A stretch of 64,000 nucleotides of DNA from Medicago truncatula (taxonomy: Eukaryota > Streptophyta > Magnoliopsida > Fabales > Fabaceae), in assembly GCF_003473485.1 (NCBI RefSeq), contig NC_053046.1:30767332-30831331 (forward strand). The letters run 5' to 3'. The notes under the pieces are model-generated. The model saw only the letters and a program-made list of their open reading frames with translations. It made no database searches and was not told the origin of the DNA. The position numbers and the translations under genes are program-made. Below, piece after piece: positions 18,915-62,700 of this stretch. Within the stretch, counting starts at the first letter, position 1. Each line of letters starts with the position of its first letter.

Positions 18915-19182
18915 TAAGCTTGAAACTTGGAAGGGAATGCGTCCTTCACCGTGAAGGATATCCAAATTGTGATGTCAGCTGAACATGTAACAGAGTGCCC
19001 CTTCAAGCATTGTGCTTTGAATTTTGATTCCTTTTATGTGGCAAATCATGGTTCTTGATTTTAGTCTAATGCACAATTCATTGTTAGTCCTTTGGCCACG
19101 ATATTGTTCACGGTTTGTATGTTAATTTCACACTAATTGAAGCCAATGTATGTAGAACCGCCAGAGATGGCATGATAATTGT
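18915..19182 (+). repeat. Left half of duplicated COL 3' flank
   Basis: This is paralogous to about 11137-11405 and continues at 27906 beyond the retrotransposon. It begins a few bases after the NCR-2 stop, which places the duplication junction at or within the NCR-2 3' end. Confidence 0.8.
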
Positions 19183-21310
19183 TGTAACGTCCACTTTCGT
19201 TTAATCGTTTATTTAATTGAGTTTAGGTGATTATATTATAATTATATAATATATGCATGATTTTGATATGTTTTGATGATTTATGATGATTTGATCGATG
19301 ACGTGATGAATTATGAGTTTTGGAAGATTTGATAAGGATATGAGAATTATTTTATTGTTAAATAAAATAAAGATTTGAAAATAATATAAAATATTTAGTT
19401 AAGGGCTGTTTTGATATTCTAGATAGTTTTGGGGGAGAAAGTGAGATAAGATAAGTAATTAAGAAGAGATATAAATAGGGAAGACCTAATTTTTAGAAAA
19501 ACATTGTTGTACGTACGTTTTTGGAGAAAAAGCCAAGAGAAGAGAAACCAAGAGAGAGGGCTGCGATTTCTTCATACAAGGTAAGGGTGAGACTAATAAT
19601 TCAATCAAGTTGATTGTTGTAATTCTGATGATTAATTGACAAAGTTAGGATTGATTTAGAAAAATTTTGGAATTAGGTCAAAACCCTAAAAATTGATGAT
19701 CAAACGGTAAAACTTGATTAGATTGATGTAGAAACCGTCCTATAATCTTAGAACATGTTTAGGATGGATTATGGAATCAATATTAGGCTTTGAACCATGT
19801 TATTTGATGGATTTTCGAGAAAACCCGTATTCTGCCCGAGCTTCTGTTCATCGCTCGCCTTGGCGAGGGATGATTCTCGCCTCGCGAGTGATGAACTTCA
19901 TCGCTCGCCTCGCGAGCCCTTTCCTTTCGCCTCGCGAGCGTTTCTGGCATCGCTCGCCACGGCGAACAACCCTTCCTCGCCTCGCGAGCTTAGGCAGAGA
20001 GCATGTCATATTTTGTGTTTCGACCTTTTTAGTTGGACCTTGGATGCCTTAGAGTGCCTGAACATACCTAGTTTTGATTAGGAATGAATGTAGGATCAGA
20101 TTGAACCCATAACAACACTAGTTTGGAAGATGAGTGGTACTCGCCATGGCGAGTAAGAACTCTCGCCTCGCGAGCACAACTAGAATTTAGATGCTTGAGT
20201 GTTTGTGCGATCTGTGTCGCACGTGTTGATCAAGAGTGAACCCCTAATTGGTAATGAAACCTAATGATGACGTTTAATGCAATCTGTAAAGCCTTTAAGA
20301 CATGTTGTCGTTAATTAAGCATGATTAATGTATTGTACAATCATGTAAGATATGAAAGTTAATTATGATGCAAATGATTGGTTGTTGATATAATGATATC
20401 ATCTTGTTATGTGACTTGTTTATGCTGCTTCCGTTATTTAACTAAGTGCATATGGTATATGATGAAGTTTAGCTCCAAATTATTGGATGCATGTTGATAT
20501 GTTGAATTACGGTGTTTTGTTGTTAAGAGTCCATGCATAGCATATCATTGAGCTTAGTCCTCACCACGTTTATTAGGAGCTTTGTCCTCCGCACGTTTTA
20601 TAGGAGCTTTGTCCTCCGCACGATTAAAGTATATTAATACTTATGATGACGATTGGTACCACATGCATATAAGGAGTCTAAGAGCATTGTCACATTGTCA
20701 TGATTAAGATGCCTTGTTGATAATGATTGAATATGTGATTACGTGATAAGTGTTTATCAATTATGTTATGTTGTTCATGATAATTGGATATATGATTACG
20801 CAATAACTGTTTAGCAATTATGCAATGTTGTTAAAGAAATGATTATGATGTTAATTTATGATTCGCAGTTACATTGATTAATGTTATTTTGTTATGAAAT
20901 CTCACCCCTTCTGCTTGAAAATGTTGCTCTTCGTATGGGTAACTTGCAGGTGATCGTGCTTAGTGTGCAGTTGCCGTCGTGAGTGGCCTTGCCTTCTCTG
21001 TGTGGTCTAGGTCGCTCTGATACGTAACGGGATGGGGTTATATGCTATAACATGCTTCATTCTTTTACGTGAACTGCTATGATAATTTCTGTTTTGATTA
21101 ACTCTTTTGAGATACTTTATTGGGGCCTGCGTGCCAAACTGATTTATGGTTAATGAACTAATATTCCGCTGCTATGTTAAGATATTATGTGAAAGTTAAA
21201 TTATTATTTAACTGTTTTTTTGGATTACGTTTCTATGTGATATCCCGTTTATGGTTTTTACTCTGATAAATGTTTAAGAAATTTGTATATTGGGAAAACG
21301 GGGTGTTACA
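19183..21310 (+). repeat. 5' LTR of the chromovirus
   Basis: The 2,128-bp LTR starts TGTAACGTCCAC and ends GGGGTGTTACA. A TATA box, TATAAATAG, lies at 19470-19478 and is the probable promoter. A CG-rich cluster of short palindromes lies at 19850-20180. A tandem pair built on TAGGAGCTTTGTCCTCCGCA lies at about 20570-20625. Confidence 0.95.
19850..20180. repeat. CG-rich palindrome cluster in the LTR
   Basis: At least six short inverted repeats occur here: CTCGCCTTGGCGAG, several CTCGCCTCGCGAG, CTCGCCACGGCGAA and the perfect 16-bp ACTCGCCATGGCGAGT. They stand out in an AT-rich LTR. The 3' LTR has the same cluster minus 50 bp, lost between two CGCCTCGCGAG repeats. Confidence 0.85.
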
Positions 21311-21312
21311 AT

Positions 21313-21324
21313 TGGTATCAGAGC
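21313..21324 (+). promoter_or_regulatory. Primer binding site (tRNA-iMet type)
   Basis: TGGTATCAGAGC begins two bases after the 5' LTR. It is the standard plant retrotransposon complement to the 3' end of initiator methionine tRNA, used to prime minus-strand DNA synthesis. Confidence 0.95.
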
Positions 21325-21423
21325 AGGTCGGTCCGTCCGGTCAATTAGAGAGTCGTGTCGAGTCTTAGTAATATTTATATTACTATCTTATGTTGTTGTT
21401 GCTACTTTTGTAGAATATCAGGA

Positions 21424-24400
21424 ATGGCTGGAAGAAACGATGCTGCGTTAGCTGCTGCTTTACAAGCTGTTGCCTAAGCTGTGGGACAACAACCTAACGC
21501 AAATGCTGGTGCGAATGCTGAAGCTAGGATGTTGGAGACTTTCATGAAGAAGAACCCTCCAACTTTCAAAGGACGTTATGACCCTGATGGAGCCCAGACG
21601 TGGCTTAAGGAGATTGAGAGGATTTTTCGGGTTATGCAGTGCACTGAGGATCAGAAAGTGCGGTTTGGTATTCATCAGCTAGCCGAGGAAGCTGATGACT
21701 GGTGGGTTGCTCTTCTGCCTACCCTTGGGCAGGAGGGAGCTGTTGTGACTTGGGCTGTTTTCAGGAGAGAGTTCCTGAGAAGATACTTTCCGGAAGATGT
21801 TCTCGGGAAGAAGGAGATCGAGTTCCTTGAGTTGAAGCAAGGAAACATGTCTGTGACAGAGTATGCTGCCAAGTTCGTGGAGCTGTCAAAGTTCTACCCG
21901 CACTATACTGCTGAGAATGCTGAGTTCTCGAGATGCATCAAGTTCGAGAACGGTTTGAGGCCCGACATCAAGAGGGCGATTGGGTACCAACAGCTAAGAG
22001 TTTTTCCGGATTTGGTTAATAGCTGCAGGATCTATGAAGAGGATACGAATGCTCACTACAAGGTAGTGAATGAGAGGAAGGGCAAGGGACAGCAGAGTCG
22101 TCCTAAGCCGTACAGTGTCCCCGCTGATAAAGGGAAACAGAGGATGGTCGATGATAGGCGGCCTAAGAAGAAGGATGCTACAGAGATTGTGTGTTTCAAT
22201 TGTGGTGGGAAAGGCCACAAAAGCAATGTCTGCCCTGAAGAAATCAAGAAGTGTGTTCGATGTGGCAAGAAAGGTCATATTGTAGCTGAATGCAAGCGTA
22301 CGGACATTGTGTGTTTTAACTGCAATGGAGAGGGTCACATTAGTTCACAGTGTACTCAGCCTAAGAGGGCGCCGACTACTGGTAGAGTCTTTGCTTTGAC
22401 TGGTACTCAGACAGAGAACGAGGATCGTTTGATCAGAGGTACTTGCTATATTAATAATACTCCTTTAGTTGCTATTATTGATACTGGTGCTACGCATTGT
22501 TTTATTGCTTTCGATTGTGTTTCTGCTTTGGGTCTTGATTTGTCTGATATGAATGGAGAAATGGTTGTCGAAACTCCAGCTAAGGGTTCGGTGACTACTT
22601 CTCTCGTATGTTTGAAATGTCCTTTGTCTATGTTTGGTCGTGATTTCGAAATGGATTTAGTTTGTCTACCTTTGAGCGGTATGGATGTGATTCTGGGTAT
22701 GAACTGGTTAGAGTACAACCACGTTCTTATTAATTGTTTTAGCAAGTCAGTGCATTTCTCTTCCGTCGAAGAGGAAAGTGGTGCAGAGTTTTTATCTACT
22801 AAGCAGCTGAAGCAACTGGAACGCGACGATATCTTGATGTTTTCGTTAATGGCTACTTTATCTATTGAGAATCAAGCAGTGATTGATAGGTTACCGGTGG
22901 TGTGTGAATTTCCTGAAGTTTTTCCAGATGAGATTCCTGATGTGCCTCCAGAGAGAGAAGTTGAGTTTTCTATTGATCTTGTTCCTGGAACGAAGCCGGT
23001 CTCGATGGCACCTTATCGTATGTCTGCTTCCGAGTTATCTGAGTTGAAGAAACAGTTGGAAGACTTGCTTGAGAAGAAGTTTGTTAGACCAAGTGTTTCA
23101 CCTTGGGGAGCGCCAGTTTTGTTAGTAAAGAAGAAAGATGGTAGTATGCGGTTATGTATTGATTATCGGCAGTTGAACAAGGTAACTATCAAGAATAGGT
23201 ATCCACTTCCGAGAATTGATGATTTGATGGATCAGTTAGTGGGTGCACGTGTTTTTAGCAAGATTGATTTGAGGTCAGGTTATCACCAGATTAAAGTAAA
23301 GGATGGAGATATGCAGAAGACAGCTTTCAGAACGCGTTATGGTCACTATGAATATAAAGTTATGCCTTTTGGTGTTACCAATGCACCTGGAGTGTTTATG
23401 GAGTATATGAATCGCATCTTTCATGCATTTTTGGATCAGTTTGTGGTTGTGTTTATCGATGATATTTTGATTTACTCCAAGACTGAAGAAGAACATGCTG
23501 AGCATCTGAAGATTGTTTTGCAAGTGTTGAAAGAGAAGAAACTTTATGATAAATTATCGAAGTGTGAATTCTGGTTGAAAGAAGTGAGTTTTCTAGGCCA
23601 TGTTATTTCTGGTGATGGTATTGCAGTGGATCCGTCTAAAGTTGAAGCGGTATCACAGTGGGAGACTCCTAAGTCAGTTACTGAGATTAGAAGTTTCTTC
23701 GGTTTAGCTGGTTACTATAGAAGGTTTATTGAAGGGTTTTCTAAGTTAGCTCTTCCGCTAACGCAGTTGACTTGTAAAGGTAAAACTTTTGTGTGGGACG
23801 TCCATTGTGAGAACAGTTTCAGTGAATTAAAGAAGCGTTTGACGACTGCTCCAGTGTTAATTTTGCCGAAGTCAGATGAACCTTTTGTGGTTTATTGTGA
23901 TGCGTCCAAACTGGGTTTAGGAGGTGTAGTTATGCAAGAAGGTAAAGTGGTAGCTTATGCTTCAAGACAGTTGAGAATTCATGAGAAGAATTACCCTACG
24001 CATGATCTCGAGTTAGCGGCCGTAGTCTTTGTATTGAAGATATGGAGACATTACTTGTATGGTTCGAGATTTGAGGTGTTTAGTGATCACAAGAGTTTGA
24101 ATTATTTGTTCGATCAGAAGGAATTGAATATGAGACAGCGAAGATGACTTGAATTGTTGAAAGATTATGACTTTGGTTTGAATTATCATCCAGGTAAAGC
24201 TAATGTTGTTGCAGATGCCTTGAGTAGGAAGACATTGCATATGTCCGCTATGATGGTCAGAGAGTTCGAATTGCTTGAACAGATTAGAGATATGAGTTTG
24301 GTTTGCGAATGGTCACCTCAGAGTGTGAAACTGGGTATGCTGAAGATTGATAGTGAATTTCTGAAAAGTATCAAGGAAGCGCAGAAAGTTGATGTCAAGT

Positions 24401-25785
24401 TTGTAGACTTGTTGGTTGCTAGAGATCAGACTGAAGACAGTGATTTTAAAATCGATGATCAAGGTGTGTTGAGATTCCGAGGAAGAATTTGTATCCCAGA
24501 CAATGAAGAGATTAAGAAGATGATTCTTGAAGAGAGTCATAGAAGTAGCTTGAGTATTCATCCGGGAGCTACGAAGATGTATCATGATTTAAAGAAGATT
24601 TCCTGGTGGTCTGGTTTGAAACGAGATGTGGCACAGTTTGTGTATTCATGTTTAGTTTGTCAGAAGTCGAAAGTTGAGCATCAGAAACCTGCTGGAATGA
24701 TGGTACCTTTAGATGTGCCAGAATGGAAATGGGATAGTATATCCATGGATTTTGTGACGAGTTTGCCAAATACTCCTAGAGGGAACGACGCAATTTGGGT
24801 TATTGTTGATAGATTGACGAAGTCGGCTCATTTTCTACCGATTAATATTAGTTTCCCTGTTGCCCAATTGGCAGAGATTTATATTAAGGAGATCGTGAGG
24901 TTGCATGGTGTTCCTTCGAGCATTGTGTCAGATAGAGATCCAAGATTTACTTCTAGATTTTGGAAAAGTTTGCAAGAGGCTTGGGGTTCGAAGTTGAGGT
25001 TGAGTTCAGCGTATCATCCGCAGACAGATGGTCAGTCGGAGAGGACAATTCAGTCGCTAGAGGATTTTTTGAGAATTTGTGTTCTTGAGCAAGGAGGAAC
25101 TTGGGATAGTCATCTTCCGTTGATCGAGTTCACATACAATAATAGTTATCATTCAAGTATTGGAATGGCACCTTTCGAGGCTTTATATGGTCGGAGATGC
25201 AGAACTCCGTTGTGCTGGTTTGAGTCAGGTGAAAGAGTGGTCTTAGGACCAGAGATTGTTCAACAGACTACTGAAAAAGTTCGGATGATCCAAGAGAAAA
25301 TGAAGGCGTCACAGAATCGACAAAAGAGTTATCATGATAAGCGTAGAAAAGATCTTGAGTTTCAGGAAGGAGACCACGTGTTTTTGAGAGTCACTCCTAT
25401 GACGGATGTAGGACGTGCTTTGAAGTCAAAGAAGTTGACCACGAAGTTCATTGGTCCATATCAGGTATTGGAAAGAGTTGGAACGGTGGCTTACCGAGTG
25501 GGTTTACCGCCGCATCTTTCGAATTTGCACAACGTTTTCCATGTGTCGCAACTTCGAAAGTATGTTTCGGATCCATCTCATGTAATCCAAAGTGACGATG
25601 TGCAAGTTAGAGACAACCTTACGGTAGAGACTTTACCGGTGAGGATTGATGATCGTAAAGTGAAGACGTTGAGAGGCAAGGAGATACCTATCGTGAGAGT
25701 CGTTTGGACGGGAGCGACTGGTGAAAGCTTGACGTGGGAGCTTGAGAGTAAGATGCTGGAGTCTTATCCAGAGTTGTTTGCTTGA
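21424..25785 (+). pseudogene. gag-pol polyprotein with two in-frame stops
   Basis: The reading frame starts at ATG 21424. It is broken by TAA at 21475-21477 (codon 18) and TGA at 24145-24147 within RNase H, and ends with TGA at 25783-25785. Domains in order are: gag; three CCHC zinc knuckles ([18 protein letters not shown] and CFNCNGEGH, 22190-22350); aspartic protease (IDTGATH, about 22477); reverse transcriptase with the FIDD active site (about 23455); RNase H (begins about 23880); integrase with an HHCC finger (about 24537-24660) and a D,D,E core; and a chromodomain at the end (GESLTWE). Three knuckles are more than the one or two usual in the group. Both stops are explained by single C-to-T-type changes, as expected from decay of methylated cytosine in silenced elements. 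No frameshift is seen. Confidence 0.93.
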
Positions 25786-25813
25786 GGTAAATTTTCGAGG
25801 ACGAAAATCTTTT

Positions 25814-25826
25814 AAGTGGGGGAGAG
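25814..25826 (+). promoter_or_regulatory. Polypurine tract
   Basis: AAGTGGGGGAGAG lies directly before the 3' LTR and would prime plus-strand synthesis. Confidence 0.9.
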
Positions 25827-25827
25827 T

Positions 25828-27905
25828 TGTAACGCCCACTTTCGTTTAATCGTTTATTTAATCGAGTTTAGGTGATTATATTATAATTATATAATATATG
25901 CATGATTTTGATATGTTTTGATGATTTATGATGATTTGATCGATGACGTGATGAGTTATGAGTTTTGGAAGATTTGATAAGGATATGAGAATTATTTTAT
26001 TGTTAAATAAAATAAAGATTTGAAAATAATATAAAATATTTAGTTAAGGGCTGTTTTGATATTCTAGATAGTTTTGGGGGAGAAAGTGAGATAAGATAAG
26101 TAATTAAGAAGAGATATAAATAGGGAAGACCTAATTTTTAGAAAAACATTGTTGTACGTACGTTTTTGGAGAAAAAGCCAAGAGAAGAGAAACCAAGAGA
26201 GGGGGCTGCGATTTCTTCATACAAGGTAAGGGTGAGACTAATAATTCAATAACGTTGATTGTTGTAATTTTGATGATTAATTGACAAAGTTAGGATTGAT
26301 TTAGAAAAGTTTTGGAATTAGGTCAAAACCCTAAAAATTGATGATCAAACGGTAAAACTTGATTAGATTGATGTAGAAACCGTCCTATAATCTTAGAACA
26401 TGTTTAGGATGGATTATGGAATCAATATTAGGCTTTGAACCATGTTATTTGATGGATTTTCGAGAAAACCCGTATTCTGCCCGAGCTTCTGTTCATCGCT
26501 CGCCTTGGCGAGGGATGATTCTCGCCTCGCGAGCGTTTCTGGCATCGCTCGCCACGGCGAACAACCCTTCCTCGCCTCGCGAGCTTAGGCAGAGAGCATG
26601 TCATATTTTGTGTTTCGACCTTTTTAGTTGGACCTTGGATGCCTTAGAGTGCCTGAACATACCTAGTTTTGATTAGGAATGAATGTAGGATCAGATTGAA
26701 CCCATAACAACACTAGTTTGGGAGATGAGTGGTACTCGCCATGGCGAGTAAGAACTCTCGCCTCGCGAGCACAACTAGAATTTAGATGCTTGAGTGTTTG
26801 TGCGATCTGTGTCGCACGTGTTGATCAAGAGTGAACCCCTAATTGGTAATGAAACCTAATGATGACGTTTAATGCAATCTGTAAAGCCTTTAAGACATGT
26901 TGTCGTTAATTAAGCATGATTAATGTATTGTACAATCATGTAAGATATGAAAGTTAATTATGATGCAAATGATTGGCTGTTGATATAATGATATCATCTT
27001 GTTATGTGACTTGTTTATGCTGCTTCCGTTATTTAACTAAGTGCATATGGTATATGATGAAGTTTAGCTCCAAATTATTGGATGCATGTTGATATGTTGA
27101 ATTACGGTGTTTTGTTGTTAAGAGTCCATGCATAACATATCATTGAGCTTAGTCCTCACCACGTTTATTAGGAGCTTTGTCCTCCGCACGTTTTATAGGA
27201 GCTTTGTCCTCCGCACGATTAAAGTATATTAATACTTATGATGACGATTGGTACCACATGCATATAAGGAGTCTAAGAGCATTGTCACATTGGCATGATT
27301 AAGATGCCTTGTTGATAATGATTGAATATGTGATTACGTGATAAGTGTTTATCAATTATGTTATGTTGTTCATGATAATTGGATATATGATTACGCAATA
27401 ACTGTTTAGCAATTATGCAATGTTGTTAAAGAAATGATTATGATGTTAATTTATGATTCGCAGTTACATTGATTAATGTTATTTTGTTATGAAATCTCAC
27501 CCCTTCTGCTTGAAAATGTTGCTCTTCGTATGGGTAACTTGCAGGTGATCGTGCTTAGTGTGCAGTTGCCGTCGTGAGTGGCCTTGCCTTCTCTGTGTCG
27601 TCTAGGTCGCTCTGATACGTAACGGGATGGGGTTATATGCTATAACATGCTTCATTCTTTTACGTGAACTGCTATGATAATTTCTGTTTTGATTAACTCT
27701 TTTGAGATACTTTATTGGGGCCTGCGTGCCAAACTGATTTATGGTTAATGAACTAATATTCCGCTGCTATGTTAAGATATTATGTGAAAGTTAAATTATT
27801 ATTTAACTGTTTTTTTGGATTACGTTTCTATGTGATATCCCGTTTATGGTTTTTACTCTGATAAATGTTTAAGAAATTTGTATATTGGAAAAACGGGGTG
27901 TTACA
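25828..27905 (+). repeat. 3' LTR of the chromovirus
   Basis: The 2,078-bp LTR starts TGTAACGCCCAC and ends GGGGTGTTACA. It is nearly identical to the 5' LTR apart from a 50-bp deletion near 26531 and about 14 single-base differences counted by eye. Confidence 0.95.
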
Positions 27906-28230
27906 AGTGTCACTGTTGTAGAAAATAATGTTTTGTTTTGCATACATGTAGATGGAGTTGTAATTGCTAAATAGTTACTTAGATGAAAATTGTACATTTG
28001 AAGGTTATGTAAAGAATATGATGTAATTTATCATGATTATAGGTTGAACGTGTATTGGTAGAAGTTTTGTTGGTATTGTTTGGTTCAATGTTTGTATTGT
28101 GTACTTCAATTGCAAACCCTCTTTTAAAGAACTGCAACTATTTGTGGAAATTTATGTGTATGTTTTGTTTTTGACCGAATTTATGTGTATGTTAATGTAT
28201 GGATTCTTGTGTTTTTTACTTCATTCAATG
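27906..28230 (+). repeat. Right half of duplicated COL 3' flank
   Basis: This continues the copy cut by the retrotransposon and matches about 11402-11690 (shared GTAGAAAATAATGTTTTGTT). It carries a small local duplication of TTATGTGTATGTT near 28151-28195. Confidence 0.8.
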
Positions 28231-41823: not shown

Positions 41824-42390
41824 ATGGCTTTTCGTGCCTTTAGATCACAATCGGTATCAACACAAGGAGCATATAACTTAGCACACAAAACAACAGAGGA
41901 GCATGTTCCAAGCAAAGTTGCACAAAGCACGGTCGCATGTTTCTACAAAGCAATTGTAGCTGGATTTTGGAGAAATGTCTCAGTTTTATGGTGCAAAAAT
42001 CTTATGAACCATACGTTACATGTCATGGTCGATAGCGTAGGAGATGATTCACAATTCAGCTGCAAGATTGATGTGAAGCCATGGCCCTTTTGGAGTAAAA
42101 AAGGATACAAAACATTTGAGGTTGAAGGGAACCACGTGGAAGTTTATTGGCATCTTCGTAACGCGAAATTCACAGTAGTCCTGAACCGAGTAGCGATTAC
42201 TACGTAGTGTTAGTTTCGGACGAAGAGGTTGTTTTGTTGTTGGGAGATTACAAGAAAAAGGCATACAAAAGAACAAAATCTAGGCCTGCACTTGTCGAGG
42301 CGATGTTACTTCTGAAGAAAGAAAACATTTTTGGGAAGAAAAGTTTCTCTACGAAGGCGAGGTTTGATGAGAAGTTAGAAAACAAATATT
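41824..42390 (+). pseudogene. DUF868 pseudogene 1
   Basis: This copy is nearly identical to the start of the intact gene at 52215, including MAFRAFRSQSVSTQG and about 250 bases of upstream sequence. It loses one base near 42173 (TTCACAGTAG where the intact gene has TTCACCGGTAG), which shifts the frame. It then continues in another frame (VLLLGDYKKKAYKRTKSRP) until about 42384, where homology stops, so the last third is missing. The frameshifted product would stop at 42207. It is a recent duplicate that lost its 3' end. Confidence 0.88.
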
Positions 42391-42470
42391 ACATTTTCAT
42401 ACGGTCAAAACACACAACCAACTCAAAGGGTGTTAACTGTTAAACATTGTTCATTCTCTATGTTAACATG

Positions 42471-45639: not shown

Positions 45640-47066
45640 TGTATTGATGTGTTATTTGACGATGTGTTATTTAACGATGTGCACAAGATAAAATATTCGA
45701 CGATGTATTATTTAATGATGAGTTATTTGAAGATGTGTTGACATAAATATGTGTTATATATAGATGTGTTATTTGAAGTTGTGTGATTTAAAGATGTGTT
45801 ATATAAACATGTGCTATTTGAAGTTGTGTGATTTAAAGATGTGTTATATAAAGATGTGCTATTTGAAGTTGTGTGATTTAAAGATGTGTTATATAAATAT
45901 GTGTTATTTAAAGATGTGTGATTTAGAGATGTGTTATATAAAGATGTGTCATATAAAGATGTGTTATCTAAAGATGTGTATTTGTCGAGTCATATAAAGA
46001 TGTGCATTGTTGAGTCATTACTTGGTGTTCATGCATTCATGGTCAGTCTAATTTAAAGATCGGGATAAATCAGTAACATACCTCTGATATACAAAACTGG
46101 TACCACATGCATATATAGTCGAGTTAGCGACATTGTATTCACTGTCAAGCATATTTGAAGATATAGTATATTTAAAGATGTAGTGGATATAAATTAATAA
46201 TATACCTCTGATATCCAAAATATTTAAAGATGTAGTGAATTTGATTATATATTTAATGATGTGTAATTTGTAAATTATTTGATAATGTGGCATTTAACGA
46301 TGTGTAATTGATCTGTTATTTAAAGATGTGAAATTAATTTATGTTCTATTTAAATAAGTGTAACTATTTTAAGATGTGATATTCAATGATGTGCTTCTAT
46401 ATGATTATGTGTGAATGATCTGTATTTTTTTAAATGTGTACTTGATATACTTAAATGGTGTTGATACTTGTATGTTGTATAAGATGTTGATTCATGCATA
46501 TTGATTTTTATAAAACGAAGGTTTATATTTAAATGTGAATATTATTCGTATGTGATGTATACATGCCTAAATGTAAATGATGAGTTCTTTGTTATGGATC
46601 TATACATGTGTTTATGCATTTCTTATGTTGAATATATTCTCACCCTCTAGTGGCGGGTTGGGCGCCTACACACTTGTGGTGTAGATTTGCAGGAAAAAGA
46701 AGCTAAGTAGCATTGAGTAGTTGGAGACGTCGTTGGCGCTTACCCATTTATTTAGTCACTATTGTTGGAGTGTTATAGATTCAAATGCTCTGATTAGTAA
46801 CACCGGAGTCGGGACGATTTGTTTTTGTTTTTAGTCTTTCCTTTGCTTTAGAATTCAATTTGAATTCAGCTTTGTTGAAGATTCTTAATGATGTGACAAT
46901 TTTATTAATGTTTTTTTTTTCTTTCTAGAATTATTCAGCTGCGATATTTTTGAAGTTATAAATAAAATTGTTTGAATTTTTATGAAGATATGTGACACCC
47001 TTGCATGTTTATTTATTTTGAATACATTTTTATTATAAAAATAAAATGTGGGATTAAGTTGTTACA
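45640..47066 (+). repeat. Decayed LTR with GATGTG minisatellite
   Basis: The part 45640-46420 is a degenerate tandem array of 15-30 base units built on GATGTGTTATATAAA and GATGTGTGATTTAAA. Downstream, TGGTACCACATGCATATA (about 46100) and the CTCACCC...TTGCAGG block (46630-46695) match the chromovirus LTR at 20656 and 20905-20950. A possible GTTACA end lies at 47061-47066. The left end was not found. The repeat-encoded ORF (MCYLKLCDLK) is a by-product of the array. Confidence 0.55.
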
Positions 47067-52214: not shown

Positions 52215-53144
52215 ATGGCTTTTCGTGCCTTTAGATCACAATCAGTATCAACACAAGGAGCGTATAACTTAGCACAGAAAACAATAGAGGAGCCTGTTCC
52301 AAGCAAAGTTGCACAAAGCACGGTCACATGTTTATACCAAGCAAATGTAGCTGGATTTTGGAGAAATGTCTCAGTTTTATGGTGCAAAAATCTTATGAAC
52401 CATACGTTACATGTCACGGTCGATAGCGTAGGAGGTGATTCACAATTCAGCTGCAAGATTGATGTGAAGCCATGGCCCTTTTGGAGTAAAAAAGGGTACA
52501 AAACATTTGAGGTCGAAGGGAACCACGTGGAAGTTTATTGGGATCTTCGGAGCGCGAAATTCACCGGTAGTCCTGAACCAAGTAGCGATTACTACGTAGC
52601 GTTAGTTTTGGACGAAGAGGTTGTTTTGTTGTTGGGAGATTACAAGAAAAAGGCATACAAAAGAACAAAATCTAGGCCTGCACTTGTCGAGGCGATGTTA
52701 CTTGTTAAGAAAGAAAACGTTTTTGGGAAGAAAAGTTTCTCTACGAAGGCGAGGTTTGATGAGAAGAGAAAAGAGAATGAGATTGTTGTTGATAGTTTAA
52801 CAGGTAATAGTACTAATGATCCTGAAATGTGGATTAGCATTGATGGAATTGTTTTGATTCATGTTAAGAATTTGCAGTGGAAATTTAGAGGGAATCAAAC
52901 TGTTATGGTTAATAAACAACCTGTGCAAGTTTTTTGGGATGTTCATGATTGGTTGTTTAGTGGTTCTGGTTCAGGACCTGGACTTTTCATTTTTAAACCA
53001 GGGCCTGTTGAAGATGAAAGTGAAAAGGAAGGTAGTGCTGTTCAAAGTTGCGAAAGTGATGATGGTAGTCTTGGTTATCATTCAACTCTTAATAATGCTA
53101 CTTTTGAGTTTTGTCTTGTTCTATATGCTTATAAGATTGAGTAA
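52215..53144 (+). CDS. DUF868 family protein
   Basis: A single exon encodes 309 residues starting MAFRAFRSQSVSTQG. The length and the blocks VTCLYQANVAGFWRNVSVLW, KIDVKPWPFWSKKG, VEVYWDLRSAKF and VQVFWDVHDWLF fit the plant-specific DUF868 family, whose biochemical role is unknown. The W- and V-rich strand pattern suggests a beta-rich fold; no signal peptide or membrane segment is seen. The repeated V-x-V-[FY]-W-D motif in each half hints at two related modules. The start is supported by the same ATG in pseudogene 1 and by stops upstream. It is the only complete copy of a small duplicated family in this window (pseudogenes at 41824 and 58309). The frame is open to a normal end, so it is likely functional. 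Confidence 0.92.
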   Translation: MAFRAFRSQSVSTQGAYNLAQKTIEEPVPSKVAQSTVTCLYQANVAGFWRNVSVLWCKNLMNHTLHVTVDSVGGDSQFSCKIDVKPWPFWSKKGYKTFEVEGNHVEVYWDLRSAKFTGSPEPSSDYYVALVLDEEVVLLLGDYKKKAYKRTKSRPALVEAMLLVKKENVFGKKSFSTKARFDEKRKENEIVVDSLTGNSTNDPEMWISIDGIVLIHVKNLQWKFRGNQTVMVNKQPVQVFWDVHDWLFSGSGSGPGLFIFKPGPVEDESEKEGSAVQSCESDDGSLGYHSTLNNATFEFCLVLYAYKIE

Positions 53145-53722
53145 TAGAGTTAAGAAACCAAAAATGTATGATAGTGGAGGGTCACTAATTAGTAGCATGA
53201 TTTTTTTTTTTTTAGCTAGTTTCATTTTTGAGTAGGTTGGAATGGATATTATTGCAACTATTGTTGCTAATTTAATTGGAAGACCTTGCTACATTGTATG
53301 TTTTTGTTGCAGACGATGTAAGTAAGATCGATCATAGAAGTGATTCATGATATGTATTTGACAGAATCATTCATCCATTCAGAATGAGAAAATTCTAATT
53401 GTTAGTTTTTGTTTTTTACATCATTTCAATGCTATTCAATATATGTGTTGGTGTCAGTGTTCTATGTATATCAGCAGTGTCTACGTGTCGTGTGAAGTGT
53501 CCGTGTCGGAGTTTGCGGTTTGTAGGTTAGAAGTCATCCATCTGTTTAAAACAACAATGAAAATAGGTTTATTATTTTCTAATGAATTAGACACAATGGA
53601 TTCACAAAATATCCAACATGTTAAATACTAACTTATCAAGTCCATGCCTGTAGTGAGTTAGCAAATACATAAATGATGAAATTTTAACCGATCAAGCAAA
53701 CAAATTCAAGAAATGTGTGTCG

Positions 53723-53883
53723 CATGGTTTTAAATTGTGGACTACAATCAAATTTGCAGCCGCAATGCAACGGTTTTAGAGGTTTCCATAACAGCACTGT
53801 AACCGCAATTGTGGCCACATCTATCGTATTTTACCATAATATTCAGGTCCACAGTTTAACCACAACCGCAATTTAAAACCATG
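53723..53883. mobile_element. MITE with CATGGTTTTAAATTG ends
   Basis: The left end CATGGTTTTAAATTGTGG and the inward right end CATGGTTTTAAATTGCGG match. A second copy lies at 59519-59677. The element is probably older than the segmental duplication because both copies occupy the same place relative to the kinase 3' end. Confidence 0.6.
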
Positions 53884-53913
53884 ATTTGAAGCAATTCAAA
53901 CAATAAACAAATT

Positions 53914-54163
53914 TCATGAGTGAATATGATTAGGTGCAGAGAAAAACTTGTAGCCGTCCTCATCTTCAATACCAAATAACATATGCTTATTCGTTTTTCT
54001 GTGAAAAAGTTTCAGATTGATGAGATGTTAAGGCAGTAAGAGGAGTGGTTTCATCTTTAAAATCTTTTCGTATTCTCCACATAACTTCTGCACAATTCTT
54101 CATAGGTGGCCTTGAATGTATGGAAGGTGCAAGGTATTGAAAAGCTAATTTGAAAACCTTCTT
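53914..54163 (-). pseudogene. Kinase last-exon relic
   Basis: It matches the 3' two thirds of the last exon of the kinase at 59703-60038. Shared stretches include CTGCACAATTCTTCATAGGT and GTGGTTTCATCTTTAAAATC. A net two-base change near 54000 shifts the frame, and the matching sequence ends at about 54163. It is a fragment left by duplication of the DUF868-kinase block. Confidence 0.85.
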
Positions 54164-54801: not shown

Positions 54802-57513
54802 TCACTGCTTCCACCACATGAACACTTTCAATATCAAAGCATTCAAGAATTTGGAATAGGTTTCTCTCCAAGATGGTAGGAACAATATTGACCCTATAAA
54901 GCCAACAAAAGTAGTGAAGAATCCTAGCCCCATGCTCATGTATAATGCTTCCAAAAATATTGAACTGTAATCTCCTGCATCAGTTATTGGCACTTGATGT
55001 TTTGGCGGCTCTTCTTCTCCTGGACATTTTATATCAAGTGGCTCTCCACAGAGATTAGGATTTCCTTCAAAACTTGAAGCGCTAAAAGTCTGCAGCTGCG
55101 TTCCAATTGGAATTTTTCCATAAAGCTGATTGTTTGACAAATCCAACGTAGTGAGGCGATCAATATGAGCTAGACTGGAAGGAATTGTGCCTGATAGATG
55201 ATTTCTTGATAGATCAAGAAATTCAAGTGACTTGAATTTTCCTATGTCTGAAATTATTTCCCCACTAAGATTGTTCCTTGACAAATTTAAGGATGTCAAT
55301 CCAAGTAAGTACTCAATTTCTGTTGGTATTTCTCCTATAAGGTGGTTGCTTGAGAGATCAATGCTGTTTAAAAACTTATCTGCATTTTTAAAGAGTCGGT
55401 CCACACCTTTCCACATCAAGAATAGATCAAATTCATATATAAAATTCATTCCCATATTATCAGTAATATTGATTGCATACGAATGATACGTCAATGAAGT
55501 TGAGTTCATGGTGCCCTGAGCCATTGAAGTAAAATTCTTTACACATGTTGGGATTCCTCCTGATAAGCTATTTAGTGACAAATCCAAGACTTGAAGTTCT
55601 CTCAAATAACATAGGTTTGAAGGCAGGCTTTCGTTGAAATCATTGAGTCGAAGGCTTAAGATTATTAACTGGTGTAAACTGTCTCCAATCCATGAAGGTA
55701 TTGGACCATGAAACATATTTTCTCCAAGGTCCAACAAAGCCAATTTGTTTGAACAATTCTTCAAGGAGGAAGGAAATTGTCCACTCAAACTGTTATTTCT
55801 TAAAATCAAAGCCTCCATATTAACAAGAGCACCCATTGAGAATGGAATCTTACCCGACAAGTTGTTATTGCTCAGTTCAACAAACTGTAATGAGGTTAGA
55901 TTATTCCAACAATCAGGCAACTCACCCTTTAATTGATTGTTTGACAAATCCAACATTGCCAGATTGTTAGGCTTACTATTGTTGCATACAAAGGAAGCTA
56001 AATCTGAAAATTTATTATTGGAAAGATGCAGTGCAACTGCTTGAAATAAAAAGGAAGGAATGGAACCTTCAAGTTGATTTGAACTCAAATTTATTTTAGG
56101 ACTTTTGGTAAACTCAAGTTCCAAATTGGGAACCTTGCCGATGATATTGTTGTTTGAAATATCAAGATTCAATAAGTGATTTTGATTAAGAAGCCAATTA
56201 GGAAAGGTAGAGTTGAGATTACAAGATGCTAGTAACAAATATTTTAATTGAAAAGGCGGAACCCAATCAGTACTAACCTTCACAGTCAACAGGTTAGAAG
56301 ACAACTGTAGGCCTAGTAATTTGGAGAAGTTAGTGAAATGAGATTCAGAGAGGACACCTTTGAAAGAGTTGCTGCCTAGGTACAAATACTCTAACTTCGT
56401 AAGCAATGTGATGCCCGTGGGTATTTCTCCAGTTAGTTTATTGTTATATAGACGCAACTCTCTCAAAGATGAAAGGGCTGAAAGGTCAGGTAACAAGCCT
56501 GAAATCTCATTATGCGATAACCTTAACTCTTGTAACAATGAAAGATTTTGGAGTTGTAAAGGGATTGCTCCAATTAGTTCATTGTAGCTGAGATCAAGGT
56601 GTTGTAATTGTGAGAGATTTCCAAGTTGGAAGGGAATTGCTCCAATGAGTTCATTTTCGCTGAGATCAAGGTGTTGCAATTGTGAGAGATTTCCAAGTTG
56701 GAAGGGAATTGCTCCAATGAGTTCATTTCTGCTGAGATCAAGGTGTTGCAATTGTGAGAGATTTCCAAGTTGGAAGGGAATTCCTCCAATGAGTTCATTG
56801 TAGCTGAGATCAAGATGTTGCAATTGTGAGAGATTTCCAAGTTGGAAGGGAATTGCTCCAATGAGTTCATTTTCGCCGAGATCAAGGTGTTGCAATTGTG
56901 AGAGATTTCCAAGTTGGAAGGGAATTGCTCCAATGAGTTCATTTCCGCCGAGATCAAGGTGTTGCAATTGTGAGAGATTTCCAAGTTGGAAGGGAATTCC
57001 TCCAATGAGTTCATTGTAGCTGAGATCAAGATGTTGCAATTGTGAGAGATTTCCAAGTTGGAAGGGAATTGCTCCAATGAGTTCATTTTCGCCGAGATCA
57101 AGGTGTTGCAATTGTGAGAGATTTCCAAGTTGGAAGGGAATTGCTCCAATGAGTTCATTACCTCTGAGATCAAGGTGTTGCAATTGTGAGAGATTTCCAA
57201 GCTGAATTATTGAAGGACTAATTTCACCACTCAAATTGCATGTAAACGAACCATGCAGATCAAGTCTTTGAACATAACCTGTTTGATTGTTGCATCGAAC
57301 TCCCTTCCATTTGCAGCAATCTTCATTTGGGTCGTCCTTCCATGTGGACAACATGCCATACTCATCTTGAAGGCCTTCTTTGAATTTGAGGAGTGCATTT
57401 CTCTCCTTCTCTTCACACTTCATTTCATCATTCTCCATTGCAGAGTTGAACCCAACAATGAAGAATAACACAAACAATGCATGGAACATAAGAATCATAT
57501 AGTTTCTCATCAT
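54802..57513 (-). CDS. LRR receptor-like protein (EIX/Cf type)
   Basis: A single exon encodes 903 residues. Residues 1-25 are a signal peptide. Residues about 31-75 are an LRR N-terminal cap (CEEKERNALLKFKEGL, paired cysteines in EDCCKWKGVRC). Extracellular LRRs run to about residue 830, interrupted by an island near the motif FLMWKGVDRLF. An acidic juxtamembrane stretch (PGEEEPPKH) is followed by a membrane helix (about 859-881, with GxxxG) and a short basic tail without a kinase. This architecture fits receptor-like proteins of the Cf/EIX2 class, which bind apoplastic ligands and signal through SOBIR1 and BAK1-type kinases. Residues 105-320 are nine nearly identical 24-residue units (LGNLSQLQHLDL, NELIGAIPFQ), a recent expansion at the N-terminal, ligand-facing side. 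Introns are absent and the frame is intact, so it should be functional. The ligand is unknown. Confidence 0.93.
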   Translation of the reverse strand: MMRNYMILMFHALFVLFFIVGFNSAMENDEMKCEEKERNALLKFKEGLQDEYGMLSTWKDDPNEDCCKWKGVRCNNQTGYVQRLDLHGSFTCNLSGEISPSIIQLGNLSQLQHLDLRGNELIGAIPFQLGNLSQLQHLDLGENELIGAIPFQLGNLSQLQHLDLSYNELIGGIPFQLGNLSQLQHLDLGGNELIGAIPFQLGNLSQLQHLDLGENELIGAIPFQLGNLSQLQHLDLSYNELIGGIPFQLGNLSQLQHLDLSRNELIGAIPFQLGNLSQLQHLDLSENELIGAIPFQLGNLSQLQHLDLSYNELIGAIPLQLQNLSLLQELRLSHNEISGLLPDLSALSSLRELRLYNNKLTGEIPTGITLLTKLEYLYLGSNSFKGVLSESHFTNFSKLLGLQLSSNLLTVKVSTDWVPPFQLKYLLLASCNLNSTFPNWLLNQNHLLNLDISNNNIIGKVPNLELEFTKSPKINLSSNQLEGSIPSFLFQAVALHLSNNKFSDLASFVCNNSKPNNLAMLDLSNNQLKGELPDCWNNLTSLQFVELSNNNLSGKIPFSMGALVNMEALILRNNSLSGQFPSSLKNCSNKLALLDLGENMFHGPIPSWIGDSLHQLIILSLRLNDFNESLPSNLCYLRELQVLDLSLNSLSGGIPTCVKNFTSMAQGTMNSTSLTYHSYAINITDNMGMNFIYEFDLFLMWKGVDRLFKNADKFLNSIDLSSNHLIGEIPTEIEYLLGLTSLNLSRNNLSGEIISDIGKFKSLEFLDLSRNHLSGTIPSSLAHIDRLTTLDLSNNQLYGKIPIGTQLQTFSASSFEGNPNLCGEPLDIKCPGEEEPPKHQVPITDAGDYSSIFLEALYMSMGLGFFTTFVGFIGSILFLPSWRETYSKFLNALILKVFMWWKQ
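56554..57201 (-). repeat. Nine 72-bp LRR units in three 216-bp blocks
   Basis: 648 bases are nine tandem 72-bp units. The two residues after LDL cycle RG, GE, SY; GG, GE, SY; SR, SE, SY, giving a three-unit period. Units 3 and 6 also share GGIP in place of GAIP and the silent codon CAT in place of CAC, 216 bases apart. The array was therefore copied as 216-bp blocks. A 208-residue ORF in a shifted minus frame is only a shadow of the array. Confidence 0.92.
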
Positions 57514-58308
57514 AATTTGACCAACAAAATAAAACTGAGTTTCTCAATAGAAAGTATACTCTGAAGAGAACACACACACACAGATAAATAAGAATAATAT
57601 GCGTGAGGTCAATTAGCACTACGTCATTTCCGCGATGTTTCCAAGCTGCTTCCTGCTATTCAATTTTTGACGAAATTGTACACTTTTTTTTAAGGTACAT
57701 TGCACATGTACAGGTTCTAAATTCTTGCACTATTTCCATCTTATTTGAAGTCATATTGTGAAGTGGTCCTTTCATATCCAAATACGGAAAGCATCTACTT
57801 TTCTTTAAAAAGAAGGTGGTGGCCGAATTTGGAAAAGTTGGGGTCATTGGTCTGTTGTGGACCCATTTCATAGTAAATTGCAAAAACCAATAACATAATT
57901 GGTTTAGAATTGTGTAAATGAAGAAAGATTAAATGACTTATGACTAATCTAATAGTTATTTTGATAGGCTTGTAACAGGCATCACATGGATTAACTTGAT
58001 AGCAGAACAGAAGCGCCATCATTTGCTTTGAAAAACTACAAAACCTCAATGCCTATTAAAAGACAGTCACAGGAAATATTCAAATAAATTCCCTTCATTT
58101 TATAATTAGTGCATAAGAATAGGCATTCATCCTAAGTATAATCAAACGGTCAAAAGGGTGTAGTGCACACTGCTAATCAAAGTACATTATTATTTCCATG
58201 ACAGCAAAAGATAACCAATAATTGATCGTAGCCCACAAAATATCAGCAAAATTTCTAACATTCTCCCACTTTTGCAAAATCAAATTTTTTTAAATAATAA
58301 GGATCATA

Positions 58309-58843
58309 TGATTTAGCACAGAAAACAACAGAGGTGCTTGTTCCAGGCAAAGTTTCACAAAGAACGGTCACATGTTTCTACCAAGCAATTGTAGCTGGAT
58401 TTTGAAGAAATGTCTCGGTTTTATGGTGCAAAAATCGTATCAACCATCTGTTATACGTCACTGTCGATAGCATAAGAGGCGATTCACAATTCAGCTGTAA
58501 GATTGATGTGAAGCCATTGCCCTTCTGGAGTTAAAAAAGGTACAAAACATTTGAGGTCGAAGGAAACCAAGTGGATGTTGATTGGGATCTTCGGTACACG
58601 AAATTCACCGGTAGTCCTGAACCGAGTAGCGATTACTACATAGCGTTAGTTTCCGCTGTTTCAAGAAAAAGGCATAGAAAAGAACAAAATCTAGGCCTGC
58701 ACTTGTCAAGGCGATGTTTCTTGTGAAGAAAGTAAACATTTTCTGGAAGAAAAGTTTCTCTACAAAGGCAAGGTTTAATGAGAAGAAAAGACATAATGAG
58801 ATTGTTGTTGATAGGTTAACAGGTAATAGTACTAATGATTAGT
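58309..58843 (+). pseudogene. DUF868 pseudogene 2
   Basis: This matches the intact gene from about residue 16 to 200 but starts without its ATG. It has an in-frame TGA at 58403-58405 (GGATTTTGAAGA), another stop in the FWS-KKG block near 58530, and a deletion near 58650 that removes the VVLLLGDY region. Homology ends at GGTAATAGTACTAATGATT. It is older and more damaged than pseudogene 1. Confidence 0.88.
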
Positions 58844-59518
58844 AATGATGAGATTGTACTAATGATCCATGGTGCCTACACGTCGTGTCTAGTGTTCGTG
58901 TCAGAGTTTGTGCTTCATAGGCTATAAGTCATCCATCTGTTCAAAAAATGTACAAGCATGAACAACAATGAAAATATGTTTATTCTTTTCTAATGCATTA
59001 GACACAATGGATTCACAAAATATCCAACATGTTAAATACCAACTTATCATGTCCATGCCACTGCAGTCAGTTAGCAAATACATATAAATGATGAAATTTT
59101 AACTGATCAAACCAACAAATTCAAGAAGTGCGTATAGCCACAATGAACATGTATTTTTAGCATCACTCACAAGACAATTATTTTGCAGAAAGTTTAACAA
59201 AATGTCATATTCATCCTTATTCTTATATTCATTATGATTTCAACTATTTTTTTACTAATTTGTCCAAGTGTTCATTGAAATGTTTATCCAAACTTGTTGT
59301 CAGAAGGTTTTCATTTTTCCCAATGTTTATCAGTCTTTTACCTTCAACTATCTCTCCTCTTATATATGCCATATTGTTCCACATAAACCTCATAAAAAAA
59401 TTCATGTTTTTTCTATTTATTAAATATTTGATATCAATCAGTAGGGTATAATCAAAAGGTCAGAAAAACTACAATCATATTGAAGCCAAACTGGCATACA
59501 CCATTGACTATGAAAACA

Positions 59519-59677
59519 ATGGTTGTAAATTGCGGTCTGCAACTGCAATTGTGGCCACAGTATAACAGTTTTAGGCCTTTTCAATGGCATCACAACCGCA
59601 ATTACGGCCACGTCTGCCTTTTACCACAGTATAAAGGTACACAGCATAACCACGACTGCAACCGCAATTTAAAACCA
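59519..59677. mobile_element. Second copy of CATGGTTTTAAATTG MITE
   Basis: Left end AATGGTTGTAAATTGCGG, inward right end TGGTTTTAAATTGCGG. It sits just beyond the kinase stop codon, as its partner at 53723 does beyond the kinase relic. Confidence 0.55.
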
Positions 59678-59702
59678 GAACAATTCAAACAATAAACAAA
59701 TT

Positions 59703-62700
59703 TCATGAACGAATGTGATTAGGTGCAGAGGAAAATTTGTAGCTGTCATCATCTTCAATACCAAATGTTATATGCTTATTCTTTTCTCTTTGAGGAAAGT
59801 TTTCAGATTGATGAGAAGGTAAGGTAGGAAGAGGAGTGGTTTCATCTTTAAAATCTTTACGGATTCCCCACAGAACCTCTGCACAATTCTTCATAGGTGG
59901 CCTTGAATGTATTGAAGGTGCCAGGCATTGAAAAGCTAGCTTGAAAACTTTCTTCACTACCTTGATGGAGGCTGGACTTCTTCTCAGTCTTGGATCCATT
60001 GCAAACACAGCTTCTCCGTTCTTGAGCATCTTCATTGCCTGCATGCATACATGCAAATTATGTTTGGATAAAATCTAATAAATGCAGCCATTTAGTTTTT
60101 AAAATTTGGCTCGGAGCTAATTCAACTCTACAAAACTAGCTTGTAAAGTCAAGTATGTCTGACACTTATAACATTTTCGAAGCCATATATTATCCAATAT
60201 AGGACTCTCCACACACCCCGCCACACCATGGTCCGCAATCGATAAAACTTCACCGAAGGAAAAGGTTTGATCTCTAATCATATAAAAAATGTTGTAAAAG
60301 TACTATTATATTTTTTTGTAATGTTTTTGGGAGATTTAACATGCATACCCATCTGATTGTGACTCTCTCATCAATTTTCTTCTTTGGTTCAACTGGATGT
60401 CTTCCTGTCATCATTTCAACAAGCAATACACCAAATGAATAAACATCACTCTTTTCTGTGAGTTGATAAGTTCTCAAGTACTCAGGATCCATATATCCAG
60501 CTGTTCCTTTAACTTGAGTTGAAATATGAGTTGCACCAGGGTCTTCGGACAATCTTGCAAAACCAAAGTCTGCCACTTTAGCCCTTAGATTCTCACTAAT
60601 TAGGATGTTTGATGCTTTGATATCTCTATGTATAATTGGATTATCTGTCAATTAAACAACACAAAATTCAGACATTCAATGGTTATCAGCATCTTACTAT
60701 ACATGTGAGTTCTATCTTGTTTCAATACAAAGTCGAACTCAATCTATATGAATCCCTAATGTGTATTGATAGTTAACATGAATACCATATTGAATCCCAA
60801 TTCATTATGGCGAATAACGAGTCACTATGATGTATCTCGATTTATTCCAATATGAATCACTACTTAAACTTGAGGTACTCAGCCACTTATTTTATTCAAC
60901 TTTGTATCTTCAATTACTTTGAGGTTCATACATGATATATCGAATTTTTATATAACTGTCACTAGTGTTTACTTACAAATGTATCTTACTATTCATAATA
61001 AGATTCTATTCACAATTCAGAAAATAGTTCTTCCGATTCACGATATGTTGAATCTACATTTGATAACCATTTAAGATTTTATTTATACCATTATATTAAC
61101 AATTTTAGGAATTGAGATAGAATGAACAAGACAATGTAAGGTTACTTGAACAGATATTGCTAATAGCCTTCCCAGATATTACAGTCAGATACACTAAAAT
61201 TTATAAACAATTCAGATATGTTGTAACATATTATTGTTTTCTATGTGACATACCTGTGTACATATGAAGGTAAGTTATTGCATGAGCTATATCGATTGCT
61301 ATGTCTAGACGCTCACCAATTTCTAGTCCGTCACCCCGAATACCTGCATCAATAATTGACTACTTTTAGGTCTCCTTTTGTTGGAACAAAATAACTCCAG
61401 TTTAAAGAATAAAAATACGGAAAATGCAAAAAGTTAGCACACGATGTTTGGTAACTAAGTTCGGCCAATTATTAAGTAAATACTACGGTCCATATTTTAT
61501 TAAATCTGCCCATTTATTTATCAGTAACTATGAGCTATCCCTAACACCTTTGTACTGTATTACAAAACCAGAACTTACCATCTAAATGTTCTCTAAGATT
61601 TCCATTCCCAACATACTCAACAATAATAAGCTTCTCATCTCCATGTTCCAAATATCCATATAACCTCACAAGATTCAGGTGCTCAATTTTCGATAAAGTG
61701 TATATTTCATTCTTGAATTCATATAGGTGACTCTGCAAAGCTTCCTGTATAAAAACACAGAAACAAACTTCACTACATTGGAAAAAATTCCACAAAAGAA
61801 ACACACAAAATGTCTGTCTAATGACATATGCTAGTAAAATTCTCGAGTTTGTTTTGACTAACTTATTTTACTTTATCTACTGACATAACACTTTTGAAAC
61901 AACTTATTACGTTTGTAGGCTTATTAAAGAAGCTATACAGGATAGCATATGAAAATAGTTTACAGCGACATGAAAACTTTTTGCCTTTCTTTTATCGTTT
62001 GTTATAGAAATATTTATTCATAAGCACTTGTATGATTAGAGTTGACGCTATAACTTAAGCAGACAGAGTCTTGGTATCTACCTAAATGCATAGTTTCATC
62101 ATCTACAGTTACAAATGGAACAAGTTATGGAGATTACTAAACTGAATAGATGAATATTATGCAATGCTAAATACCTTCTTGGCGCGCTTCACAGCGACAA
62201 TTGTTCCATCATTAAGCTTTCCTCTATAGACAGTTCCAAATCCACCTTCTCCAATTTGATTATCTTGAGAGAATTTTGCAGTTGACTTGTAAATTTCTTC
62301 AAAAGTGAAATTCCCAGTTCCAAGCTGTTCACTTGTAGTACTAGATGATGCATAGGAAGAAGAAAATCTCCATTTTGAAGAATTCTTGTTACTACTTTCG
62401 GATGATAAATCAGTTGAAGCTGCAAATTAAGATACATCTTAATCAATATTGGAAAATCTCAACTTACTTTTTCCGGTCTATATACCGTCACAATATGACT
62501 AATTTATGGTAGTGTACATATTGAAATGACTATGCATGCATGTACTTTTTTCCATGATTTGATCATAGTTTTACATAAAGGATTGAGCATAATCTATTTT
62601 TGGTCTTAACTCTGAAACCTCTCGTGCCAGAGGAAAATGACCTTGATAATCCAAAGTTCAGCCGAGAGGTTGAATACAATAAAAACATTTCAAATAAACT

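Follow-up and report, generated by a model that had tools for sequence, protein, structure and literature searches.

The closest precedent for the array described here is given by the tomato Hcr2 genes, such as Cf-2 and Cf-5, in which intragenic recombination leads to varying counts of 24-residue LRRs that are highly repetitive at the nucleotide level, and for which an origin through replacement of the N-terminal half by recombining LRRs has been proposed (sections of PMC7468133). Passages of PMC4030839 describe the N-terminal part of Cf-2.1 as a tandem super-motif of two conserved LRRs, and map the specificity of Cf-2 to LRR3-LRR27. Near-identical LRR repeats are also reported for the rice NLRs Xa1/Xo1, where their number differs between related genes, and for the L and M alleles of flax (part of PMC7004385), while the LRR genes of Tetrahymena carry arrays of 90-bp exons in variable number, with unequal crossing over as the proposed cause (part of PMC6564038).

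The receptor gene described here lies in the window, i.e., the whole stretch of 64,000 nucleotides from Medicago truncatula that was analysed, and resembles the Hcr2 genes in having an array of near-identical 24-residue LRRs in its N-terminal part. It differs from them in that the super-motif is composed of three LRRs instead of two, and in that the nearest relatives compared in its own genome carry a single such unit. The Xa1/Xo1 and flax L/M proteins are less similar, being intracellular NLRs with repeats of 93 or ~150 residues, and the Tetrahymena genes share the intragenic LRR arrays but are exon-based and belong to a ciliate. By analogy, the gene may thus work like Hcr2 with a three-LRR super-motif, a likeness that concerns the mode of change and not an assignment to the Hcr2 clade. 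Among the papers listed by searches for a legume case, none describes this array in its title or in the opening of its abstract, although such a description may still be published. The array adds a good example to those of an already known process, and represents neither a new mechanism nor a new kind of system. It would add another plant genome in which a surface receptor has remodelled its N-terminal ectodomain through the amplification of a single LRR, and since relatives in the genome keep the single-unit state, the steps of the amplification can be reconstructed. The tomato precedent had been missed in the first-pass annotation of the window, as had the replacement by the array of other ectodomain segments found in the relatives, and the amplified LRRs of further genes with different step sizes.

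The receptor gene and its nine-unit array

The gene occupies positions 54802..57513 on the minus strand as a single ORF of 903 aa, the stop codon being included in these coordinates. Pfam matched LRR_1, LRR_8 and LRRNT_2 in the protein, and a search for a kinase domain over its 903 residues gave no Pfam match. The N-terminal LRR cap (LRRNT_2, PF08263, E 8.8e-13; residues 36-75, 57289..57408, minus strand) is preceded by a probable signal peptide at about residues 1-25 (57439..57513, minus strand; end point estimated), and a probable transmembrane helix at about residues 859-881 (54871..54939, minus strand; limits estimated) is followed by a short cytoplasmic tail. Both the signal peptide and the helix were called by hydropathy: the top 19-residue windows begin at residues 4-8, and of the listed windows beyond the signal peptide, those starting at 860-863 score highest. 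A non-LRR island of 53 residues (661-713; 55375..55533, minus strand; limits drawn by eye) is followed by four LRRs, the same number that follows the island in the LRR-RLP families tabulated in a section of PMC4030839. Pfam, hydropathy and the reading frame together give the features of an LRR-RLP: signal peptide, N-cap, LRR ectodomain, membrane helix, short tail and no kinase. The best solved relative of the protein is 7drb chain C, a membrane-localized LRR receptor-like protein (E 2.7e-166), which we take to be RXEG1. The gene is an intact LRR receptor-like protein gene, and its product probably acts at the cell surface as a receptor in immunity or symbiosis.

The array comprises nine 72-bp units, each encoding a 24-residue LRR, at 57204-56557 on the minus strand in the frame of the protein. 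Tandem Repeats Finder reports it at 56552-57201 with a period of 72, 9.0 copies and 93% matches, and the nine near-identical LRR units of the first-pass annotation are therefore real; its coordinates for the array, 56554..57201, are shifted by 3 bp from the units in the protein frame. The units fall into three blocks of three (all on the minus strand), which read from 5' to 3' have the following residue pairs directly after the LDL motif: RG, GE and SY in units 1 (57133..57204), 2 (57061..57132) and 3 (56989..57060), GG, GE and SY in units 4 (56917..56988), 5 (56845..56916) and 6 (56773..56844), and SR, SE and SY in units 7 (56701..56772), 8 (56629..56700) and 9 (56557..56628). The pairs are those previously noted. 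No base differs between units 2 and 5 or between units 3 and 6, while unit 9 is a diverged edge unit whose bases in columns 65 and 68 are those of 9/10 and 10/10 paralog units, respectively. A three-unit period, which had been claimed for the variable residues and one silent codon alike, is found for the residue pairs; the silent change, CAT in place of CAC, occurs in units 3 and 6 but is absent from unit 9, and the third variable site (GAIP/GGIP) has the same distribution, with GGIP in units 3 and 6.

Only 13 columns vary across the units. Mismatches within the array amount to 14/432 at a lag of 216 bp, against 36/576 at 72 and 34/504 at 144, and exact self-matches reach a length of 210 bp at lag 216 (copies at 57159-56950 and 56943-56734, together spanning 56734..57159 on the minus strand), compared with 57 bp at each of the lags 72 and 144. 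The array (56557-57204) further encodes one N-glycosylation sequon per unit, nine in all, and has a net charge of -19 over 216 residues, of which two are basic. A 208-residue ORF inside the array, on the same strand and in another frame, mirrors the repeat and was dismissed.

A single unit in the paralogs

The genome used for comparison is one assembly of 429,922,655 bp in 42 contigs. The BLAST comparison covered 12 close paralogous loci on contigs C1-C4, with the distant relatives on C5 and C6 (L049, L052-L058) left out. Ten of the 12 loci contain one homologous unit, and all unit comparisons below refer to these ten; in the other two (L040, L044) the part corresponding to the array is missing, and they were excluded as having no match to it. 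No tandem match of at least 90% at lags 72, 144 or 216 was seen in any of the 12. The single units are of uneven quality: that of L045 is the weakest (16/72 mismatches), that of L042 contains a stop, and L043 has, after its first unit, a further degenerate one with 19 mismatches. Relative to L045 the window gene is without about 135 bp upstream of the unit, and relative to L043 without about 650 bp downstream of it. Any 90% tandem match at these lags was found in 7/60 locus rows, two of which represent the window gene and two a single C6 gene; this proportion should not be read as a genome-wide frequency, given that the loci were picked by similarity to the gene or the array, overlap in part and include some genes twice, with L061 and L062 (see below) outside the count.

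We propose, at a probability of roughly 75%, that one ancestral LRR was amplified and its neighbouring irregular segments were lost, the array growing by triplet blocks from three to six to nine units. One ancestral 24-residue LRR would first have been copied into a triplet, the members of which then diverged in the residue pair that follows LDL (SR, SE, SY). The 216-bp triplet would have been duplicated (3 to 6), and the copy, altered at a few sites, would have been duplicated again (6 to 9). At some point the ~135 bp before and ~650 bp after the ancestral unit would have been lost, leaving a regular array in place of irregular LRRs; the order of loss and gain is our inference. The most likely mechanism would be unequal exchange between sister or homologous gene copies, and the two QLGNLS-encoding words that flank the single unit in 6/10 paralogs are a plausible site of the first such exchange. 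Growth by blocks predicts alleles with lengths of 6, 9 or 12 units. Unit number may differ among plants, as supposed in the first-pass annotation; the comparison made here is between paralogs, with one unit against nine.

In parsimony calculations the block tree ((1,2),3) required 16 substitutions, equal to the best of 60 unconstrained heuristic runs, while the alternative block tree (1,(2,3)) required 19. When two outgroup units were included, a tree with unit 9 at the base required 23 substitutions, the block tree 25 and the best single-unit tree 31, so that the third block must be more than a plain duplicate.

Constraint and the residues after LDL

The window gene evolves under constraint, as seen from dN/dS values of 0.35-0.41 for its C-terminal part and 0.33-0.68 for residues 1-103, in each case against three paralogs whose reading frame is open throughout. 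Within the array, codons 13-14 show on average 2.24 pairwise nonsynonymous differences over 4.89 sites (0.46 per site), compared with 0.61 over 50.93 sites (0.012 per site) in the remaining codons and 1.76 synonymous differences over 16.18 sites (about 0.11 per site), values for which the unit pairs are not independent. Eight of the 16 changes inferred on the block tree, some of them not amino-acid changing, fall in these two codons, i.e., in 6/72 columns (P 1.6e-5; 3.7e-4 after correction for 23 codon pairs), and the proportion becomes 7/9 once columns varying only in unit 1 or unit 9 are dropped. Change is thus concentrated after LDL, as had been suggested. Among the single units of the paralogs, however, position 13 is nearly constant, while position 14 is as variable as position 20 with six residues each, so that variation in the family agrees only for position 14.

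Residues 13-14 come after the LxL motif in the LRR strand and, going by the LRR consensus and the alignment with solved LRR receptors, would lie on the concave, ligand-facing side. A structure prediction from the single sequence reached a mean pLDDT of 49.2 and a pTM of 0.39, with ten-residue pLDDT means of about 55 to 83 in the array region. The predicted strand ends at position 11, just before positions 13-14, in 9/9 units; this fits the concave placement without proving it, as the quality of the model does not allow side chains to be positioned. The exposed, ligand-side position previously assigned to the variable pairs agrees with the consensus and with the strand positions of a low-confidence model. 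By analogy with tomato Cf-2 and Cf-5, it is plausible that the array helps to generate new surfaces for recognition. A far more speculative reading, which we consider very doubtful, is that of a periodic concave surface, in which the same residue types would recur with a period of three LRRs along a ladder of strongly acidic character and growth in threes would keep the register for a repetitive or multivalent ligand; if so, allele length could tune reach or avidity.

Amplified LRRs are also found in receptor kinase genes. The next best matches to the array query were genes on C8, and a kinase domain is present in 4/4 genes fetched (L059-L061 on C8 and L062 on C7). L059 (C8:18861000-18865000), whose best solved relative is MDIS1-interacting receptor like kinase 2, has 16 tandem units with an exact match of 238 bp at lag 216. 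In L060, about 55 kb from L059, seven units stand in tandem and an eighth lies apart, and the longest exact match is 93 bp at lag 72; the corresponding values are 61 bp at lag 72 for L061 and 142 bp at lag 144 for L062, and all three genes have fewer near-identical units than L059. The four genes resemble the window gene in their tandem near-identical LRR units, and differ from it in the kinase domain and in a longest match that may lie at lag 72, 144 or 216. L059 is a gene unrelated to that of the window and lies on another chromosome; amplification of LRR units thus recurs in this genome, with varying step size. A 216-bp step as a general rule is rejected by the lag of 72 in L060 and L061 and of 144 in L062, and the three-unit step of the window gene is without a demonstrated cause, since other receptor genes step by 72 or 144 bp.

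These genes bear on the question of whether the array has any recognition role of its own. Its growth could have been neutral, with homogenized LRRs merely being tolerated, a view that we regard as unlikely but deserving of serious attention. In the near-identical core of the L059 array (units 5-13 of 16) the two post-LDL residues are invariant while other positions vary, so that block growth needs no variation there; moreover, the window gene offers just 16 changes for analysis, and its paralogs show little variation at position 13. The neutral account fits less well with the clustering of the window-gene changes in the two codons after LDL and the rarity of nonsynonymous change elsewhere in the array, or with the second post-LDL residue being among the most variable positions over the 16 units of L059 and the 8 units of L060. 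Post-LDL variation is common once units diverge, yet growth by blocks is possible without it.

Competing histories, and other repeats in the window

The similarity of units three apart could alternatively be maintained by gene conversion in an older array, without block duplication. The identity of units 2 and 5 and of units 3 and 6, together with the divergence of the edge units 1 and 9, would be expected if conversion were weaker at the edges. A single duplication, however, explains the exact tract of 210 bp, which is nearly three units long, and it likewise explains the derived changes common to blocks 1 and 2: the paralogs have serine at position 13 in 9/10 units and C at column 29 in 9/10, which makes G in the GE pair and T in the CAT codon of these blocks look derived. 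As the 12 paralogous loci compared also contain no array, we judge an older, converted array to be improbable.

Growth by single units is less probable again. Under this explanation 72-bp slippage would have added one unit at a time and the three-unit order would have arisen by chance, and it is at lag 72 that the C8 kinase genes L060 (93 bp) and L061 (61 bp) have their longest exact self-matches. For the window gene, none of the 1,430 single-unit duplication histories requires fewer than 24 substitutions, against the 16 of the block tree, and one-unit slippage as the sole history is rejected on parsimony. A lag-3 similarity as good as that observed is reached in only 768 of the 362,880 possible unit orders, all of which were enumerated, and when the best of lags 1-4 was taken for each order, 42/20,000 random orders were as good. 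That the array is an artefact of assembly or consensus is similarly far-fetched: the window rests on one assembly, but the frame is intact over nine units that differ in an ordered way, and 648 bp is short for modern sequencing reads.

Growth by 216-bp blocks, proposed in the first-pass annotation with gene conversion as the other option, is thus well supported by the 210-bp exact match at lag 216 and the 16 against at least 24 substitutions, with conversion keeping the small probability given above. If sites change at a rate of about 7e-9 per year, the absence of differences over 210 bp suggests that the last step took place less than about 1 million years ago, an estimate that conversion would blur.

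Several other repeats are present in the window. A segment bearing a DUF868 gene flanks the receptor gene in two same-strand copies (52255-54163 and 58299-59954); the gene is whole at 52215-53144 and reduced to a broken fragment at 58301-58839, with another fragment at 41824-42422. An array of 15-bp units at 45646-45983, which is without a listed ORF of at least 150 aa, scores higher at a period of 45 bp and is another repeat with a three-unit period. Finally, a retroelement-like segment at 19181-27909 has 2.1-kb terminal repeats that are 97% alike, and the long frames between them resemble gag-pol, a label assigned by eye.
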